From: Spirochaetia bacterium
GTDB lineage: Bacteria > Spirochaetota > Spirochaetia > Treponematales > Breznakiellaceae
Length of the DNA: 8,170 nt
Assembly: GCA_025997715.1 (NCBI GenBank)
Contig: BNUY01000135.1
Location: forward strand, 1 to 8,170
Reading direction: 5' to 3'
Under the pieces are notes generated by a model, which searched no databases, had not been told where the DNA came from, and saw only the letters and a program-made list of their open reading frames with translations. Both the position numbers and the translations under genes were made by a program. Shown here one piece after another: positions 1,801 to 8,170 of the stretch. The number at the start of each line of letters is the position of its first letter. Within the stretch, counting starts at the first letter, position 1.

Positions 1801-1918
1801 ATGAAAAAAACCGATTATACTGAACCGACCCTCGACTGGCTGCAGCGTCAGTTTATCAAGGTACCTTTTGGCGTTCTCCGTCCTGCGGAAATTGAGCTTA
1901 TTCTCGCCTATTTTCTTA
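1801..1918 (+). pseudogene. 5' fragment of a gene disrupted by the transposon (39 codons plus one base)
   Basis: The ATG at 1801 has a strong AAGGAG (1786-1791) nine bases upstream. The fragment encodes MKKTDYTEPTLDWLQRQFIK and on to ELILAYFL, then meets the transposon at 1919. Deleting 1919-6450 (the element plus the right-hand copy of the duplication) joins the final A of this fragment to TG at 6451, giving ...AYFL-MYHDD... in the same frame as 6450-6983. The intact ancestor would be 216 aa. I do not recognise the family. As it stands, translation runs on through the terminal repeat to a stop at 2080-2082, overlapping the transposase start, so the product would be a 93-aa chimera. Confidence 0.75.
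1911..1918. repeat. Target-site duplication, left copy (TTTTCTTA)
   Basis: These eight bases immediately outside the left terminal repeat are identical to 6443-6450 immediately outside the right one. An 8-bp duplication is characteristic of the IS1595 family, in agreement with the transposase. The identical copies argue for a direct insertion with no later rearrangement. Confidence 0.93.
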
Positions 1919-1944
1919 GGCTCTGTTCCATAAAGCGGGGCCTA
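1919..1944 (+). repeat. Left terminal inverted repeat (26 bp)
   Basis: It starts GGCTCTGTTCCATAAAGCGG and ends in CCTA; every one of its 26 bases matches the reverse complement of 6417-6442. Matching breaks at the 27th base. The terminal repeats are presumed to be the transposase binding and cleavage sites. Confidence 0.95.
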
Positions 1945-1982
1945 TTACCAAAAAATCATAATTTTTCGCAAAATCTTCCAAA

Positions 1983-2005
1983 TTATGCTTACATAATAAG
2001 CATAA
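1983..2005 (+). promoter_or_regulatory. Hairpin next to and overlapping the transposase ribosome binding site
   Basis: TTATGCTTA (1983-1991) and TAAGCATAA (1997-2005) form a perfect 9-bp stem with a 5-base loop. The 3' arm shares its last bases with the AAGGAA-type binding site (2004-2009) of the transposase ATG at 2012. It could dampen transposase translation on read-through transcripts, as in other insertion sequences, or serve as a protein-binding palindrome. The role is inferred from position. Confidence 0.45.
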
Positions 2006-2011
2006 GGAAAG

Positions 2012-2995
2012 ATGATGACAGGAACAAGTTTAGAAGCCATACTGAAAACACTCACCATAGCGGACAAAAAAGCCCTCATTGAAACCCTGTCGAGAGATGT
2101 CCTTAAAGTTGAAGCCAATGACATCTTCCATAACTTGTCATCCAATACCGCAAAATGTCCCCATTGTGGTTCATACCACATAATCAAAAAAGGCGTAAGG
2201 AATGGAAAACAAGTGTTTCGTTGCAAAGATTGTGGAGTAAAGTTTTCCATTCAAACTAAAACTCCCCTTCAAAACTCCAAAAAATCCGTGGAAATCTGGT
2301 CGCAATACATCAATCTTATGGTCGATGGTCTTTCTTTAAGAGCCATAGCAGAAAACCTCAACATCAACCTCAAAACCGCCTTTTACTGGAGACACAAAAT
2401 CCTTACCGCTATCCAGTCGGTCAAAAGCGCAAAACTCTCTGGTATAGTAGAAGCAGATGAAACCTACTTTCCAAAATCAAACAAAGGTAGCAAAAACCTC
2501 CCCGCTGGAACCGCCCGCAAGCGTGGTAAATCAAAGTTCGGTGTTAGTAAAAGAGGACTCTCCAAAAACCAAGTCTGCGTCATAACCGCCCTTGACCGGA
2601 ATAACCACTTCTTCAATCAGCCTTGTGGCTACGGTAAAGTTCAAATAATGTGGATTAGACAAAATCTTTCACAGCAGATTGTAAAAGGCTCAACGCTGGT
2701 AACTGACGGCGATAAATCCTACAAGACACTTAACAATGTCAAGCTCATTCAAATCAAAGGCGGTATCACTAACGACAAGCGGTATAACATAGCAAGAACA
2801 AACGCCTACCACAACGACCTCAAACACTTCCTTGACAGGTTCCGTGGAGTAGCAACAAAATACCTTGACAACTATGTCAACTTCTTTAAGGCAATCAAAA
2901 TCAGCAATCTAAACTTCGACAATGTAGTGTCAATCAATACTTACACAAGACAAGAAGACATAAACAACAAAATCGAATTTAAGCGAGCAGCTTAA
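2012..2995 (+). CDS. IS1595-family (ISXO2-like) DDE transposase
   Basis: This 327-aa enzyme should cut and join the element's terminal repeats. An N-terminal zinc ribbon is visible (Cys49-P-H-Cys52 and Cys71-K-D-Cys74), followed by an HTH-like segment (about 95-130, SLRAIAENLNINLKTAFYWR) that probably binds the ends. The DDE domain begins at GIVEADETYF with Asp149, and the second acidic residue is Asp232 (or Asp234) in VTDGDKSY. The third lies in the NAYHNDLK segment (264-271), where an Asn or Asp replaces the usual Glu; such variation is known in this family. The start at 2012 (ATGATG) has AAGGAA just upstream. The length is typical and no frameshift is seen, so the enzyme is probably active. 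It converges on the minus-strand gene at 3039, 43 bases away. Confidence 0.93.
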   Translation: MMTGTSLEAILKTLTIADKKALIETLSRDVLKVEANDIFHNLSSNTAKCPHCGSYHIIKKGVRNGKQVFRCKDCGVKFSIQTKTPLQNSKKSVEIWSQYINLMVDGLSLRAIAENLNINLKTAFYWRHKILTAIQSVKSAKLSGIVEADETYFPKSNKGSKNLPAGTARKRGKSKFGVSKRGLSKNQVCVITALDRNNHFFNQPCGYGKVQIMWIRQNLSQQIVKGSTLVTDGDKSYKTLNNVKLIQIKGGITNDKRYNIARTNAYHNDLKHFLDRFRGVATKYLDNYVNFFKAIKISNLNFDNVVSINTYTRQEDINNKIEFKRAA

Positions 2996-3038
2996 CAATA
3001 ATAAAGCAGGCATTGTCAGATAGATGTCCGTCATTAAG

Positions 3039-3341
3039 TTACTTCAAATCAACCAAGAAATAAATATAATTTGAATTTCCGGTAGATTCATCAAGTTTAG
3101 TTTTTAATCCTTTCCAAGTATTAGTGGGATTATTATGTTCCTCACATAAAGGTGTAATAGCAGTATGCTTCTCGGAGTTTATTATATGTCCTCCATCAGT
3201 AGCTGTTTTTTCACAGCCTTTTACTGCACACTTACTTGCTGCCTTTCCAGATTTTGATTCCCAATACTTTAACCAACCGCCCGGTGGTGTGGTTATTTTA
3301 CTACTTCCAGCTTGATTCTGCCAATCATTATTTGTTGTCAT
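3039..3341 (-). CDS. Small HNH-like / treble-clef Cys-His protein, cargo gene
   Basis: A 100-aa soluble protein read on the minus strand. The ATG at 3341 is chosen over an in-frame ATG at 3380 because AAGGAG (complement of 3348-3353) sits six bases upstream. Residues 15-30 hold a Pro/Gly/Trp stretch (TTPPGGWLKYW). The core reads KCAVKGCEKTATDGGHIIN...TPLCEEHNN: Cys38 and Cys43, Gly-Gly-His52-Ile, then Cys66-x2-His69-Asn70. The spacing resembles a compact HNH-type treble clef, with a zinc site from the Cys/Cys/Cys/His set and GGHI at the place of the catalytic His strand. Whether it cleaves DNA or only binds zinc or nucleic acid cannot be told. It is divergent from the methyltransferase and shares the 136-base control region, so it may belong to the same functional module. 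Confidence 0.7.
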   Translation of the reverse strand: MTTNNDWQNQAGSSKITTPPGGWLKYWESKSGKAASKCAVKGCEKTATDGGHIINSEKHTAITPLCEEHNNPTNTWKGLKTKLDESTGNSNYIYFLVDLK

Positions 3342-3477
3342 TTTATACTCCTTACGAAATATATTAACAAAAATATTCAATTAAGCGTTTTTAATTTTTG
3401 TTCTTGCTTCAAAAAAATTATGCTTTAACTATTTTTGCTAGTTAGGACGATTGAGAAAATCGTTGACTAGTTAATAT
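3342..3477. promoter_or_regulatory. Divergent control region between the HNH-like gene and the methyltransferase
   Basis: This A+T-rich gap must hold promoters for both divergent genes. Three copies of TAGTTA occur: one inverted (TAACTA, 3426-3431) and two direct (3439-3444 and 3468-3473, each preceded by C). A separate hairpin, ACGATT (3447-3452) with AATCGT (3458-3463), lies between the direct copies, and a TTGACT -35-like box sits at 3463-3468. No convincing -10 partner at normal spacing was found. The methyltransferase has no Shine-Dalgarno here, so a very short or absent leader is possible. Operator function is inferred from the repeats. Confidence 0.4.
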
Positions 3478-4698
3478 ATGATAATGGATTATGTTAAAAC
3501 CCAGTTCTTTAGTCCAAAAGCACTGGTAGATACTTGTGTATCTTTAATTAAAAATAAGAATGGTAGGCTACTCGAACCCAGTTGCGGGGATGGTAGTTTT
3601 CTTCTCCTTAAAAATAGCGATTCGGTTTTTATTGAGATAGACAAGTCTGTAATCACCGACCCCGATGTCTTGAATATTGATTTTTTCGATTACTCTATTA
3701 AAAATAAGTTCGATACTATCTGTGGTAATCCACCATATTTAGACAACGCTGACTTTATTTTTGATAGTAAGACATATACTCCAAAAATACTATGTAAAGC
3801 AAACTTGTATTTGTATTTTATAGAAAAATCATACGAACATCTGAATGCGCGAGGTGAAATAATATTCATCGTTCCAAGGGAGTTTATTAAGCTAACTTCT
3901 GCAAAGATGGTGAATGAGCTACTTATGGTGAATGGAACTATCACGCATTACTATGATTATGGAGATCAGATGTTTTGGAAAGATGCCAGTCCTAATATCT
4001 GTATATTTAGATATGAAAAAGGAAATATGAGTCATAAGACTATAACATTAAACGGTAAGTTCAATTCTATCATAAACAATGGCATAATTTCTTTTATTAA
4101 AAACGAAAACTCGATTAGATTAGGGGATTTATTCACCATAAAAGTAGGTTCTGTTGCGGGTAACGATTACCTATTTGAGAATGAAAAAGGTGATGATTTC
4201 GTATTCTCCGAAACTTGCAAGACCGGAAAAACAAAGAAAATGATTTTTCAGAAATACGATAAGTCTCTTGAAGAGCATAAAGACATCTTGATAAATAGGA
4301 AAATACGGAATGATTATGATGAAACAAACTGGTGGATGTGGGGGCGTCCTGTAAATCATAATGAGGGCAATCCTAGAATCTATGTGAATTGCAGGACAAG
4401 AAATAAGTTGCCCTTTTTCCTAAATCCTTGCGACAAATGGGATGGCTCAGTGCTGGCTTTATTTCCAAAGTTTAAAGTAAATCTTGTTAAAGCCACCGAA
4501 ATGTTAAATAGCATAGACTGGGAATTACTCGGCCTAAAATCTGGGGATAGGTTCTTATTTTCTCAGAAAGCACTTCAAGAGGCACCGTGTGGAATGACAA
4601 AGCTAAAAAAGATATTTGGTGATACTATAGTGAATAAGATAAAGACAAATAATGCTTCCGCTTGTCAGCCTAACCTATTCCTGAAGGAACAGGCTTGA
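3478..4698 (+). CDS. DNA adenine-N6 methyltransferase, gamma-type (TaqI/Eco57I-like), cargo gene
   Basis: A 406-aa enzyme expected to transfer a methyl group from S-adenosylmethionine to the N6 of adenine in a specific DNA site. Motifs run in gamma-class order: motif X-like QFFSPKALVDTCVSLI (9-24), motif I LEPSCGDGSF (32-41), motif II FIEID (51-55), catalytic motif IV NPPY (84-87), and the GEIIFIVPREF strand (126-136). FWKDASPNICIFRYEK (166-181) fits the motif VIII region. Residues about 200-400 form the putative target-recognition domain (GDLFTIKVGSVAGNDYLF). The start may be ATG 3478 or ATG 3484; neither has a ribosome binding site and a stop lies just upstream at 3472. It is followed after 27 bases by the gene at 4726, probably in one transcript. 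The recognition sequence cannot be read from the protein. No missing catalytic residue is seen. Confidence 0.9.
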   Translation: MIMDYVKTQFFSPKALVDTCVSLIKNKNGRLLEPSCGDGSFLLLKNSDSVFIEIDKSVITDPDVLNIDFFDYSIKNKFDTICGNPPYLDNADFIFDSKTYTPKILCKANLYLYFIEKSYEHLNARGEIIFIVPREFIKLTSAKMVNELLMVNGTITHYYDYGDQMFWKDASPNICIFRYEKGNMSHKTITLNGKFNSIINNGIISFIKNENSIRLGDLFTIKVGSVAGNDYLFENEKGDDFVFSETCKTGKTKKMIFQKYDKSLEEHKDILINRKIRNDYDETNWWMWGRPVNHNEGNPRIYVNCRTRNKLPFFLNPCDKWDGSVLALFPKFKVNLVKATEMLNSIDWELLGLKSGDRFLFSQKALQEAPCGMTKLKKIFGDTIVNKIKTNNASACQPNLFLKEQA

Positions 4699-4725
4699 AA
4701 AAAAGTTTGGGGTTAATATTGTTGC

Positions 4726-5481
4726 GTGATAGAGATAGAAGAGATAATAAATATAGAAAAAGAACCTTATGAAATATTCATTCATTTAATAACCTGGTTA
4801 AATGAAGTAGCTAAATCTCCTTGGTGGGAAGATAAAAGAAAAAAAATTGAAGATATTCGTAAAGAGTTTAAGTGTAATGGAAGAACTATATCTTCTTTAT
4901 ATGAAACCCCAATAAAAGAGGCTATAAATTGGTATTTCAAAGGTTCAGATTATTATGAAGGTATTGATACAGATACTAAATTAAATGAATGGTATGATTA
5001 TGCTATAAAATCTATAAAATCTATAACACGCATAATATATGAATTAAATATAAAAGTCAGTGAGGGAGATGCACCCGATAACTTATCATCTATGGCTGGT
5101 GTATGCAAAGCTCTTACTGGTAATATTGGTCCAAATAAGTTTCCCTGCACCAAGACAAAGGAAGATTTAAAATACATCCTAAAAAATTTAAAGACTGGTA
5201 GCGACTATTATTTGATATACTATGATAAAAAGAATAATGAATTTTGGTGGTCTTCATTAAAGAGGCTTATAGTGGTTGTTCCGAATCCGAGCAATAAACC
5301 TTTTCAAATAAAACCAAATGATAATAGATATTGGTCGGAAATAGGTGAAAAAGGAGAAGTAGAAGCAATGAAATATTTGTTGGAGATACTACAAAAGAGT
5401 TTCAAAAATGATATTGATGATGAGTTAAATACTCTATTTGAAATTGCGTTTGAAAAAATAAATACCACGGGTAAAATATAA
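4726..5481 (+). CDS. Unrecognised 251-aa protein downstream of the methyltransferase
   Basis: The only usable start is GTG 4726, since TAA at 4714 blocks the frame upstream and the next in-frame ATGs lie deep in the protein; the ribosome binding site is weak. I do not recognise the family. The N-terminal half is charged and helical with many aromatic residues (ITWLNEVAKSPWWEDKRKK, 22-40; a YY/WY-rich segment 69-92). The middle has SSMAGVCKALTGNIGPNKFP (121-140). A beta-rich part follows (SDYYLIYYDKKNNEFWWSSL, 159-178, then LIVVVPNP). The C-terminus has GEKGEVEAMKYLLE (207-220), recalling the helix that carries a Glu in some PD-(D/E)XK nucleases, but no catalytic D...(E/Q)xK follows. No membrane segment or signal peptide. 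Position directly after a methyltransferase makes a restriction partner or methylation-linked effector the natural hypothesis; the sequence alone does not show it. Confidence 0.75.
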   Translation: MIEIEEIINIEKEPYEIFIHLITWLNEVAKSPWWEDKRKKIEDIRKEFKCNGRTISSLYETPIKEAINWYFKGSDYYEGIDTDTKLNEWYDYAIKSIKSITRIIYELNIKVSEGDAPDNLSSMAGVCKALTGNIGPNKFPCTKTKEDLKYILKNLKTGSDYYLIYYDKKNNEFWWSSLKRLIVVVPNPSNKPFQIKPNDNRYWSEIGEKGEVEAMKYLLEILQKSFKNDIDDELNTLFEIAFEKINTTGKI

Positions 5482-5523
5482 AGTTTAACATTAGACTATT
5501 GGTATCAAATAAACTAAATAAAA

Positions 5524-6174
5524 ATGGATTATGAAAAGATTTATGAAGCGACACAAGATTTAGACGCACCGTTACAATCTGTTGAAGATGGTCTTCCGGT
5601 TAAGGAAACAGAAACGCCAAAAATTAAAATAGACACAAGTAAATTTCCAATTATTGATATTGAGGTTAGTGAAGATGAAAACAATTATTTTAACGCCATG
5701 CAGAACTCAAAAACAAAAGAAGAGAGGGAAGCGGTCTTAAAGGAAATTGAAAAGTCGTATAAACCCTTTAGAACAAATTATATGAATAAGTCAGTGATAA
5801 ATAACGCTTCAAAAATAAAAATTTTGCTTGCTGGGAAAGGAATAGATCATTGTTTCCAGCAATGGAAAAATTACGAGTTGTGTCCTGCTATTAAATACTT
5901 GCAAACAATTATAGAAAACTCATATCATACTACTGAAACAAGCCAACACCTTGACGAACCAAATACAAATCGAGGAGAAGTTGCACACATATTTTATTGT
6001 AATGGGAAATACATAAATAAGTTCAAAAAAGAAAATCAGGAAAAATTACATACATTGCGTATAGCTACAATAACTTTCAAAAAGAATAACCAAATTAATT
6101 TTCGTCATATTAGTAAATATAAAGAAAATAAAGAGACTTTATGCGTAGAATTAGTCTCTATTGATTTTCTATAA
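5524..6174 (+). CDS. Unrecognised 216-aa protein, possibly with an LPD/BECR-like C-terminal domain
   Basis: Last cargo gene, 42 bases after the preceding stop and with no clear ribosome binding site before ATG 5524. The first 45 residues are acidic and probably disordered (ATQDLDAPLQSVEDGLPVKE); residues about 50-90 are a charged helix (NSKTKEEREAVLKEIEKSYK). The C-terminal part has SVINNASKIKILLAGKGIDH, then a helix (PAIKYLQTIIENSYHTT), then NRGEVAHIFYCNGKYINKF and a strand HTLRIATITF. This order recalls the small domain associated with phage and mobile-element polyvalent proteins and with Barnase/EndoU/Colicin/RelE-like nucleases. That is a shape resemblance from memory, not a confirmed match. 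If right, it could be an RNase-like effector; otherwise its role is unknown. Base composition matches the rest of the cargo. Confidence 0.7.
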   Translation: MDYEKIYEATQDLDAPLQSVEDGLPVKETETPKIKIDTSKFPIIDIEVSEDENNYFNAMQNSKTKEEREAVLKEIEKSYKPFRTNYMNKSVINNASKIKILLAGKGIDHCFQQWKNYELCPAIKYLQTIIENSYHTTETSQHLDEPNTNRGEVAHIFYCNGKYINKFKKENQEKLHTLRIATITFKKNNQINFRHISKYKENKETLCVELVSIDFL

Positions 6175-6207
6175 AAAAAGCCACCCCAAAGCTATAAGGG
6201 GTAGCTT
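6173..6207 (-). terminator. Terminator-like hairpin after the last cargo gene (T tract on the minus strand)
   Basis: AAGC (6178-6181) pairs with GCTT (6204-6207) and CCCC (6184-6187) with GGGG (6198-6201), with one internal mismatch. Seven A precede it (6173-6179), so on the minus strand it ends in a T tract and should stop antisense transcription entering from the right. On the plus strand, where the operon ends, the T tract is absent, so termination there would be weaker. Confidence 0.5.
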
Positions 6208-6278
6208 AACGCCTCTTGATGGATCTGGGGTCTGCCCAGCCGTCATCGAGTGGTCAAAGACCACACAAGAGGTTTAAT
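6208..6278 (+). other. Highly structured three-way-junction element near the right end of the transposon
   Basis: CCTCTTG (6212-6218) pairs perfectly with CAAGAGG (6266-6272). Inside lie two further hairpins: CTGGG/CCCAG (6225-6229 with 6235-6239), extended at its base by ATG/CAT (6219-6221 with 6244-6246), and GTGGTC-AAA-GACCAC (6250-6264). Together they form a compact three-way junction in a stretch richer in G+C than its surroundings. It could be a small RNA, a 3'-end structure of the operon, or a folded DNA site. I could not assign it to a known RNA family; it lacks the hammerhead core and tRNA T-arm. Confidence 0.45.
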
Positions 6279-6416
6279 AAACACTAACATAACATTTAGT
6301 CAATGTCTATACCCTTTATGTAAGCACAAATCTTCAATTTTCAAACCAAAACGGATAAAATTATGAAAGTGTGTCAAAATGACGCATTTTCAGGCTATGC
6401 CAGCCGATTTACAGAG
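6279..6416. other. Non-coding A+T-rich subterminal region of the transposon
   Basis: No gene is visible. AAAATTATGA (6357-6366) is the inverted counterpart of TCATAATTTT at 1956-1965 near the left end, at different distances from the ends, so it may be a subterminal transposase site or chance. TGTGTCA-AAA-TGACGCA (6370-6386) forms a short near-perfect hairpin. Confidence 0.35.
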
Positions 6417-6442
6417 TAGGCCCCGCTTTATGGAACAGAGCC
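6417..6442 (-). repeat. Right terminal inverted repeat (26 bp)
   Basis: It is the exact reverse complement of 1919-1944, beginning TAGGCCCCGC and ending CAGAGCC, and is followed directly by the second copy of TTTTCTTA. It marks the right boundary of the transposon. Confidence 0.95.
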
Positions 6443-6450
6443 TTTTCTTA
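6443..6450. repeat. Target-site duplication, right copy (TTTTCTTA)
   Basis: It is identical to 1911-1918. Its last base, A6450, with TG at 6451-6452 makes the ATG that opens the remaining host reading frame; in the ancestral gene this was an internal Met codon. Confidence 0.93.
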
Positions 6451-6983
6451 TGTACCATGACGATATGCTTGATAAAAGTGAATATGAACTGGCGGAAAAA
6501 TACCGGATAAGCGAAACCAAAGCCCTGCGCTTAAAACTGGAATTCGATAAACGCTGGCTCGATGACCAGAAAAAATCCTTTGAGAACATAGTCGCCGGAA
6601 TCGGGAAACACATCTTTGAGGACCGGACGATAGAACTATCCCGGGACGAAAGTCAGAAAAACATATCGTTTATGCTTACCGACCCATACGAATTACAATG
6701 TCTAAAACGGGCCCTGGAATTTAACGGCATTCCCTATACGGGGAATTTTGTCAGAAGCCTGGTGACACTCCAGCAGGAAAAGTTCATTGCCATTTTTTTT
6801 AAATACTATCCCGGCTTGAAAGAAACCCTTACCCCCTTTCTGGCCGGAGACATAGCAACCCAAGCCGAACGGAATGCCATCCTTGATAAAGCGGTCCCGC
6901 TGAGTCAAAAAGCCTGGAAGATCCTCAAACAAATTGCCCCCAAGGCGATTGAGGCTGTTCTAACCTTCGCTATACAAGGATAA
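6450..6983 (+). pseudogene. 3' fragment (177 codons) of the host gene disrupted by the transposon
   Basis: It continues in frame from 1801-1918 once the transposon is removed. It encodes MYHDDMLDKSEYELAEKYRI..., with a helical N-terminal segment (ELAEKYRISETKALRLKLEFDKRW) that could be a helix-turn-helix. A mixed alpha/beta middle follows, then a helical C-terminus (KAWKILKQIAPKAIEAVLTF). I do not recognise the family; there is no signal peptide or membrane span. The fragment could in principle be translated from the ATG at 6450, but no good ribosome binding site lies in the terminal repeat, so it is more likely silent. It keeps an open frame with no secondary mutation, consistent with recent insertion. 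Confidence 0.7.
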
Positions 6984-7122: not shown

Positions 7123-7755
7123 ATGGCAAAAGTTGAAATTTCGGTGTATGTCTCGTATCACGGGACGGAGGAGGCGCTGAAACAGTTTGAACAGGCGCTT
7201 GCGGCGCGTAAGAGGGGCGCGGTTAAACGGGTGCTGAAGCATTACGATTGGAATACGAAAGCACACTTTTTTGGGGAGAATAACTACGAGGAGTGCGAAA
7301 TCCCTTACGGGCATTTTAAGCCGCTTATGCGCTTATTCCCGGACATCACCTTCGTTTTTGACGTTTACTTCGAGGACCGGGTATATGACGTGCAAGGTGA
7401 CGTGATAGGCTTCGGCAGGTATTTTACCGTGTACGAAGCGGGCAAGCGGGTCTATGACGCAGGAAAGCGGGTGGAATGGCCTTCCGTTGTCGATGCGTGG
7501 TGCGATACGTTCGGGCGGCCCAAAGACAAAGACCTGGACATAGTAGAGGGATGGGATTTGTTCCATCCGCTCTGTGACGCCGCGCGAATGGCGATGGACG
7601 GCAAACACGGCTCTTTTACCCTGGGTAAAGACCCGGTAGAGATGAAAGCTGCGGCAAAAAAACAGGAAGAAGCGGGAACGCTCCACGGCTACCGCGACTA
7701 CCTCAATAAAAAGGCTGCCGGGGCCTTGCCCTGTTTCCACAGGATAAACGCATAG
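7123..7755 (+). CDS. Unrecognised 210-aa cytoplasmic protein
   Basis: The ATG at 7123 is preferred over the in-frame ATG at 7075 because GGGAG (7111-7115) is well placed, and because the earlier start lies in the terminator hairpin. The protein begins MAKVEISVYVSYHGTEEALK, a likely beta-alpha unit in which EEALKQFEQALAARKRG is a basic helix. Several aromatic-rich strands follow (ITFVFDVYFEDRVYDV, FGRYFTVYEAG), then WCDTFGRPKDKDLDIVEGWD. A 21-bp tandem duplication (7432-7452 and 7453-7473) encodes Y-(E/D)-A-G-K-R-V twice. No catalytic motif, signal peptide or membrane segment is evident, and I do not recognise the family. Its last codons and TAG lie inside the inverted repeat that starts at 7738, so the native C-terminus may have been replaced by repeat sequence. 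Confidence 0.7.
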   Translation: MAKVEISVYVSYHGTEEALKQFEQALAARKRGAVKRVLKHYDWNTKAHFFGENNYEECEIPYGHFKPLMRLFPDITFVFDVYFEDRVYDVQGDVIGFGRYFTVYEAGKRVYDAGKRVEWPSVVDAWCDTFGRPKDKDLDIVEGWDLFHPLCDAARMAMDGKHGSFTLGKDPVEMKAAAKKQEEAGTLHGYRDYLNKKAAGALPCFHRINA

Positions 7756-7955
7756 GAAAAATAATGAAAAAAAGAGAAGAATTTTAACCGCGAAGGCGAC
7801 GAAGGAAAGAAAGAACAAGAGAATCAGGCTAAAAAATACTAAATTGTGCCTTCGAAGTCCACTCAATTCTGGGTCCAGGGAGTATCCTCTTCTTCCCCTT
7901 TGCGCGCCTTCGGCGCCTTTGCGGTTTTTTTCTTCTCTTATGCGTTTATCCTGTG
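7738..7955. repeat. Long imperfect inverted-repeat element (MITE- or REP-like)
   Basis: The arms match in three blocks: 17 perfect bases (7738-7754 with 7939-7955), AAGAGAAGAA (7772-7781) with TTCTTCTCTT (7930-7939), and 18 of 20 bases between 7786-7805 and 7907-7926 (AACCGCRAAGGCGMCGAAGG). The left arm has about 17-18 extra bases (7755-7771). The AACCGC-AAGGCG-GAAGG type of sequence is familiar as a dispersed repeat in many bacterial genomes. The interior (7806-7906) holds no supported gene. Confidence 0.65.
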
Positions 7956-8056
7956 TTTCCATGTAAAAGCTTCCCACTGGCAGTTGCGCTTGGACGATGA
8001 AGACACCGGTGACGATGAAGATATTACTATCATGGACGATGACTGCGTTCTGCGGG
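7956..8056. other. Intergenic stretch with short GACGATGAAGA repeats
   Basis: No gene is supported. GACGATGAAGA occurs at 7993-8003 and 8011-8021, with a partial copy GACGATGA at 8035-8042. One frame would give an acidic Asp/Glu stretch, but there is no start with a ribosome binding site. Confidence 0.3.
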
Positions 8057-8170
8057 GACATTTGAACACGAATTCCGGCTTACTTGAACAGCCGTGCGGA
8101 AATACTTGAACAGAAAAACGGGAACATTTGAACACGCTTGCGGAATACTTGAACGCCTTTGCGGAACATT
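8057..8170. repeat. Iteron-like tandem array of TTGAAC repeats, period 21-22 bp, open at the right edge
   Basis: TTGAAC begins at 8062, 8084, 8106, 8128 and 8149, and the next unit begins at the edge (GCGGAACATT at 8161-8170). Units are of the form CGGAA(C/T)A(C/T)TTGAACA with variable bases between. The period of about two helical turns is not a multiple of three, so the array is non-coding and would present each site on the same DNA face. Confidence 0.65.

Follow-up and report, generated by a model that had tools for sequence, protein, structure and literature searches.

The 8,170-nucleotide stretch of DNA analysed here (hereafter the window) is contig BNUY01000135.1 of a Spirochaetia bacterium, the genome of which is available as a draft (76.9% complete, 447 contigs). 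It contains a 4524-bp element of the IS1595 insertion sequence (IS) family at positions 1919-6442, the features of which are collected in Table 1. Between its terminal inverted repeats, the element encodes a transposase, a small Cys/His-rich protein, a DNA methyltransferase, a likely restriction endonuclease and a leader protein, followed by a structured RNA, and the two parts of an interrupted gene lie on either side.

Table 1. Features of the element and of the gene it interrupts, in order along the window.
Feature	Position	Strand	Basis or remarks
5' part of target gene (39 codons and first base of the next)	1801..1918	+	joins in frame with 6451-6983
Left copy of 8-bp target duplication, TTTTCTTA	1911..1918		same as 6443-6450
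Left terminal inverted repeat, 26 bp	1919..1944	+	exact reverse complement of 6417-6442
IS1595-family transposase, 327 aa, zinc ribbon and DDE domain	2012..2995	+	NF033547, NF050000, PF12762
Small Cys/His-rich protein, 100 aa	3039..3341	-	no supported family
Gamma-type N6-adenine DNA methyltransferase, 406 aa	3478..4698	+	MTase_II, PF07669, M.TaqI
Likely restriction endonuclease, 251 aa	4726..5481	+	phrog_3978, annotated phage restriction endonucleases
Leader protein, 216 aa, weak LPD3 match	5524..6174	+	PF18798; leader comprises about the first 29 codons
Structured RNA, hairpin and T run at end	6176..6285	-	convergent with LPD3 gene; z=-3.82
Right terminal inverted repeat, 26 bp	6417..6442	-	exact inverted match to 1919-1944
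Right copy of 8-bp target duplication	6443..6450		same as 1911-1918
3' part of target gene	6451..6983	+	joined frame and homologue

The two termini are exact inverted copies of one another over 26 bp (a figure of 27 bp counts one flanking base that matches too), and about 7e-9 exact inverted pairs of this length would be expected by chance in such a window. On both sides they are bordered by the identical 8-bp sequence TTTTCTTA. Elements of the IS1595 family generate target duplications of 8 bp, a length that was also found in related elements here, in a search set for 8 bp only. When the flanks are joined with one copy of the duplication, a single 216-codon frame is obtained, the product of which was searched in 98 genomes of the family and found matches in three of them (its own genome, G057 and G105). 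The match in G057 (G057:C81:257-877) is an uninterrupted homologue, which aligns with residues 1-212 across the junction at 38% identity; that in G105 is limited to residues 49-212. The joined frame and the uninterrupted homologue therefore place the insertion in a real gene. Inside both ends, in inverted orientation, lies the segment TTATGCTTACATAA (1983-1996 and 6316-6329, 13 of 14 bases), and TGCTTACATAA is found again in the right ends of sibling elements; these segments are perhaps part of an inward promoter. The promoter-like and terminator-like sites returned by our scan were no more numerous than the chance level.

The transposase scores far above the cut-off of the NCBIfam IS1595 profile NF033547 (157.2 bits, cut-off 75), and it also exceeds those of PF12762 (38.8 bits, cut-off 27) and, in its N-terminal zinc ribbon, of the zinc-binding domain NF050000 (44 bits, cut-off 28); the Pfam Zn_ribbon_IS1595 match (18.4 bits) falls under its cut-off of 25.4. 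The preliminary description of this DNA, made from the sequence without database searches, had proposed a complete passenger-carrying IS1595-family transposon with exact 26-bp ends, an identical 8-bp flanking duplication and an intact zinc-ribbon/DDE transposase. All of these are borne out by the above results, by the uninterrupted target homologue and by further elements in the same genome; the element was thus filed correctly, in a kind that is already known. A search of its own genome with the transposase produced five strong matches, on contigs C135 (the window), C93, C22, C134 and C61, the other four being 94-95% identical to the copy in the window, together with a distant match on C236 and, within one of the paired elements, a remnant of 23 residues on C230. 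The five copies differ from each other at 27-47% of synonymous and 3-5% of non-synonymous sites, and the ratio of the two rates (dN/dS) is 0.06-0.10. The copies are under purifying selection; the high synonymous difference combined with the low ratio indicates that they are old and have been maintained as proteins.

The ends themselves are numerous in this genome and nearly confined to it. The 24-bp end, with up to three mismatches, occurs at 28 sites (none when the pattern is read backwards), and the 15-bp end core occurs at 38 sites, compared with one site each in two other genomes and none in the remaining 142 of the 145 family genomes searched. Within 35 stretches of the genome, 14 elements, including that of the window, could be paired by their ends; the pairing tolerated one mismatch in the 8-bp flanks, and the flanks proved identical in 14 of 14. 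These paired elements are 233 to 4524 bp long; three possess a full transposase and 11 are without one, and the transposases of C134 and C61 are located in elements cut by contig ends. A further 23 end-like sites remain unpaired, many of them near contig ends and at least two looking like chance. The duplications are rich in AT (87%, versus 53% in the fetched loci). Thus the search with end repeat and transposase that the preliminary description had proposed recovered same-genome relatives (the 28 end sites and four more transposases), and the outcome it had named as unfavourable, with no second copy, no empty site and no relative sharing the ends, did not occur. At another locus (L021, 3280-4288), two elements are apparently adjacent, with 7 bases between them and one outer 8-bp duplication.

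Outside this genome, the closest relatives of the transposase come from metagenomes; these proteins are 79-86% identical to it in alignments that cover 53-87% of the length. From named genomes we retained the best 80 of 175 relatives, and those at the head of the list, 38-44% identical, belong to Rickettsiales and Bacillaceae. We examined 81 related loci (these 80 and L113, from a viral contig), and 32 of them have both ends and an 8-bp duplication; one, L182, was excluded, its ends appearing unrelated (17 of 26 bases). The resulting 31 elements are 1.2-3.4 kb long; 27 contain an extra open reading frame (ORF) of at least 60 aa, although some of the short ones may be due to chance, and eight of the ten passenger proteins scanned match a Pfam family. 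Passengers are therefore usual in this branch of transposases. The L113 element (6481-9477, 2997 bp) has exact 26-bp ends and carries an AbiLi/AbiLii-like (RloB) pair (E=3e-62 and 3e-10), such that defence-like cargo occurs in two elements, this one and that of the window. No match for the element as a whole was found in the plasmid collection.

Siguier, Gagnevin and Chandler reportedly described IS1595-family elements with passenger genes in 2009. As in such transporter ISs, the element of the window combines transposase, inverted repeats and 8-bp duplication with genes unrelated to transposition (the methyltransferase and three further ORFs); it differs in that the cargo is a likely restriction-modification pair together with a leader-partner unit that varies among siblings of the same genome. 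An excerpt of PMC3129680 treats insertion sequences that carry passengers as known, under the term transporter ISs, an excerpt of PMC2266710 describes passengers in the IS4 family, and part of PMC11092175 gives copy numbers of other IS1595 elements. The 11 transposase-less elements resemble the mobile insertion cassettes and miniature inverted-repeat transposable elements (MITEs) exemplified by MIC231 in the same portions of PMC3129680 and PMC2266710, since they have family ends and duplications and would need a transposase in trans. MIC231, however, belongs to IS231/IS4, another IS family.

The cargo of the window is dominated by the methyltransferase and the gene that begins 27 bp downstream of it. 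The former matches the PADLOC model MTase_II (PDLC03282, E=1.9e-89), the Pfam family PF07669 (Eco57I) and the structures of M.TaqI (E=3e-9), in agreement with its earlier assignment as a gamma-type methyltransferase, here of the Eco57I/TaqI type. The 251-aa product of the latter matches phrog_3978, annotated as 'endonuclease' (E=4.9e-10), and tblastn at E values up to 1 retrieved 47 phage records; most of the 20 listed are annotated as restriction endonucleases, with a similarity of 26-38%. The best match (E=6e-6, 26% identity) is in a Mycoplasma prophage. The neighbourhood was inspected in two of these records; in one, a Mycoplasma prophage, the relative directly adjoins a cytosine DNA methyltransferase gene, and in the other, a cyanophage, it directly adjoins a dam methyltransferase gene. 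On the strength of the endonuclease resemblance and the position beside methyltransferases, the two genes of the window likely constitute a type II restriction-modification pair. Like known type II systems with TaqI/Eco57I-like methyltransferases, it couples such a methyltransferase profile with an adjacent endonuclease-like gene; unlike them, it is carried inside a small transposon and is known from its sequence only. An orphan methyltransferase beside a protein that is no restriction enzyme would agree with the low phage similarity (just 26-38%), with phage names that are annotations only, and with a protein whose catalytic residues and fold could not be checked. The phrog_3978 profile match and the recurrence of the gene order in unrelated phages, there next to two further classes of methyltransferase, speak against it, and we regard this explanation as rather unlikely. 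The titles of the literature consulted name no IS1595 element with a restriction-modification pair, which is not proof of absence.

Of the two genes originally listed as unknown, one thus resembles annotated restriction endonucleases, and the other, the leader protein gene, barely reaches the Pfam family LPD3. The small Cys/His-rich protein, scanned without its first Met, had been called HNH-like; this was not upheld, as no supported match, HNH included, was obtained in Pfam, NCBIfam, PADLOC or PHROGs.

The leader protein exceeds the cut-off for LPD3 (PF18798) only just (27.2 bits, cut-off 27), and four homologues (P0002-P0005) have the same precomputed domain; its predicted model is unusable, with a mean predicted local distance difference test score (pLDDT) of 43.5. 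About 29 codons at its start are common to this gene and to sibling elements, and past this leader the proteins diverge. A profile of the leader identified nine places in its own genome: six full copies, one lacking a start (C213) and two of 16 residues followed by a stop. They are distributed among paired elements (C135, both C93 places and C22), elements cut by contig ends (C108, C134, C61 and C213) and C221, for which one element end was found. The leader alignment excludes C213, where a stop lies in frame ahead of the leader. The LPD3 gene of C22 is without a leader proper. The short copies (L009 4213-4275 and L010 4925-4987) stop after 21 codons and are situated between genes for a Gly-rich and a Peptidase_S74 protein. 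Six metagenome proteins from JGI match the LPD3 protein or its leader.

In six of the seven longer leader cases (C93, C134, C61, C108, C213 and C221), a small ORF that runs inward from the end of the element converges on the leader gene, with 3' ends ranging from 1 bp apart to an overlap of 19 bp. In the window, the partner position within the element holds no ORF of 50 aa. Here the structured RNA occurs, and a hairpin and T run on the minus strand extend to the stop codon of the LPD3 gene. The structured 3' end noted previously is therefore real, although it is best read on the minus strand; our simple terminator scan missed the hairpin because its loop exceeds the allowed length. A second copy, 79% identical, is found on C22 beside the other LPD3 gene, and the only further match comprises 21 bases (E=0.46). 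Of the 32 base pairs compared between the two copies, 21 are unchanged, five are altered on one side, four on both sides and two are broken, in a comparison of two sequences with a structure derived from one of them. Rfam gave no match at gathering thresholds, the right end producing below-threshold matches only. Gene order and co-occurrence allow one guess, namely that the leader protein and its convergent partner may form a toxin-antitoxin or toxin-immunity pair. According to an excerpt of PMC5512222, LPD domains originate in phage and conjugative polyvalent proteins, and 40 of them are listed there with precise functions elusive. The RNA beside both LPD3 genes would thus offer a first experimental handle on a domain that its discoverers list as function-unknown.

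The cargo of the siblings includes a Peptidase_S74 tail-fibre chaperone, a 606-aa tail-fibre-like protein (C134), a Gly-rich protein without a profile match, a possible second methyltransferase on C61 (phrog_799, E=5.5e-5; no Pfam match) and, on C7, a match to the YafQ toxin. Proteins of transposase-less elements (L026, L038, L040, L016 and L022) have another N-terminus in common, M-T-I-R-E-A-K-R-I-V-E..GY; on C7 it follows the YafQ match in the same frame. Several cargo genes have the sequence ACTAATTA, or a form with one mismatch, directly before the ATG, and most of them lack a Shine-Dalgarno match. The set comprises six leader genes, both S74 genes, four fibre genes, the C22 LPD3 gene and the methyltransferase gene of the window (the one-mismatch test flags some other genes too). 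The exact 8-mer is present at 14 sites within 35.6 kb of element DNA and at five sites in 158.9 kb outside, counts that are uncorrected for base composition. With an ATG 1-4 bases on, it occurs ten times in the genome, eight of them in these elements, and the reversed control occurs twice.

The S74 chaperone and the tail-fibre-like proteins raise the question of whether the elements are shuttles for genes of a large phage. The leader would then target proteins to the capsid, and the host would retain the fibre, methyltransferase and LPD3 genes, all of them phage late genes, from one infection to the next. The phage and conjugative ancestry of LPD domains (PMC5512222, in part) would suit such an origin, as would a constant N-terminus with a variable remainder, the arrangement of the T-even internal proteins with their capsid targeting sequence (PMC3012670, in part). 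This likeness, for which we drew on portions of PMC3012670, PMC9024508 and PMC10229621, is one of arrangement: no sequence relationship was found, and the leader is transposon-borne and was not seen in phage. Searches of viral contigs and phage records recovered neither the leader nor the leader-LPD3 protein, and the methyltransferase has no relative in viral contigs and two weak phage matches only. The start-box matches in viral contigs are single and scattered (80 of 91 stretches listed), and in its own genome the pattern forms no phage-like cluster. The lone phage contig matched by both the end and the start-box patterns (IMGVR_UViG_3300028591_000076) has one isolated site of each, the end match lying within an ORF. 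The phage shuttle is accordingly very improbable. We rejected the capsid-tag reading of the leader, which had no match to viral contigs or phage proteins; a comparison by eye of T4 IpI with the leader gave no alignment worth reporting. An excess of leader-like N-termini in cargo (6 of 41, versus 0 of 131 flanking ORFs) was not used, as it is circular, the expression having been drawn from the leader.

Comparison of the cargo among the copies, as suggested initially, shows that the ends are shared, the cargo differs and the elements are mosaics. C22 and C93 are 92% identical over 3.0 kb, with values between 83% and 99% in 150-bp steps. Their identity falls to about 50% in the terminal unit, which consists of LPD3 and the RNA on one and of a leader protein and a 120-aa ORF on the other, and rises to 96% in the last 74 bp. 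C108 and C134 have 722 bp in common at 89%, ending inside the leader genes. The unit that differs most between siblings is the leader protein with its convergent partner. Between C135 and C61, the synonymous difference is 0.03 in the leader versus 0.47 in the transposase (rough Fisher p=5e-5, for a pair chosen after the values were seen), and the leader value is below that of the transposase in five of the six comparable pairs. Between C22 and C93, it is 0.056 in the fibre gene and 0.02 in a 79-aa gene. Mosaic identity of this kind, observed without an event, suggests that blocks of cargo have likely been exchanged between backbones, and homologous recombination at the leader and end segments would be the simplest route.

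A single recent arrival that multiplied and decayed, and whose cargo was diversified by deletion and random capture while the backbones exchanged nothing, would account for the finding of all copies in one genome and for the near absence of the end core from its relatives. The transposases differ at 27-47% of synonymous sites, however, which marks the backbones as old; some cargo is far less diverged (the fibre and 79-aa genes above), and the identity along C22/C93 shifts in steps, all of which makes such an arrival improbable. Block exchange might be extended to a broader but doubtful proposal, in which the IS1595 transposons of this genome serve as a cassette platform. The terminal unit, a leader-tagged effector with a convergent cognate partner (mostly a protein, and a structured RNA in the LPD3 copies), would be swapped between backbones via the shared leader and end sequences, and the host would gain rotating conflict genes. 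If the unit is indeed a cognate pair, a small transposon would shuffle conflict genes without integrase or conjugation.

Overall, we put at roughly 85% the probability that positions 1919-6442 represent a complete IS1595-family transposon in a protein-coding gene, with an 8-bp duplication, for which movement in one piece by the transposase it encodes is likely and whose cargo includes a likely type II restriction-modification pair alongside a leader protein. This estimate draws on the ends, the duplication, the IS1595 profile, the joined target gene and its G057 homologue, the 14 identical flanks, the purifying selection, the endonuclease neighbourhood, the C22/C93 mosaic and the usual presence of passengers. 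Several observations detract from it. Transposition, cleavage and methylation are all predictions from sequence. The 251-aa protein retrieved only itself in a large protein search, had no relative in the PDB and no match in the plasmid collection, and yielded an unusable predicted model (mean pLDDT 42.9). The leader contrast is strong in C135/C61 only; between C93 and C134 the leader is the more diverged (0.43, versus 0.34 for the transposase), and the S74 gene of C22/C93 (0.257) is as diverged as the transposase (0.271). Finally, one of the 14 paired elements, C178, contains two further ends and is probably two elements side by side.

Mechanistically, any DNA between ends of this type would be a substrate for the transposase, which would therefore mobilize the cargo of its own element in cis and the elements lacking a transposase in trans. 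Cargo blocks may then pass between backbones by homologous recombination at the shared leader and end segments. Restriction-modification pairs are known to promote persistence by making their loss costly or by blocking phage, and the pair of the window might help the element to persist in either manner, through costly loss or a block on incoming phage. The element is of a known kind, and what is unusual is its cargo and the informative set of siblings. The new details are the likely restriction-modification pair, the mosaic terminal unit, the phage-tail-like and YafQ cargo of the siblings, and the AbiL-like pair in a related element. Variants with shared ends and differing cargo in one genome render the capture and exchange of passengers by an IS legible from sequence.

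The remainder of the window contains several minor features. A lipoprotein-like ORF (318-1697) has repeats of the type KFVAVG...SSDGVTWT and a weak match to Pfam DUF6242; the same weak match is seen in the 606-aa tail-fibre-like cargo of C134 (L017 5520-7340). Upstream of its likely ATG, a perfect palindrome with 15-bp arms and one base between them occupies positions 335-365. On the other side of the element, a 23-nt inverted repeat (91%, with 172 nt between the arms) spans 7738-7955, and short direct repeats of the form GGAACATTTGAACACG occur at the end of the window (8053-8166).

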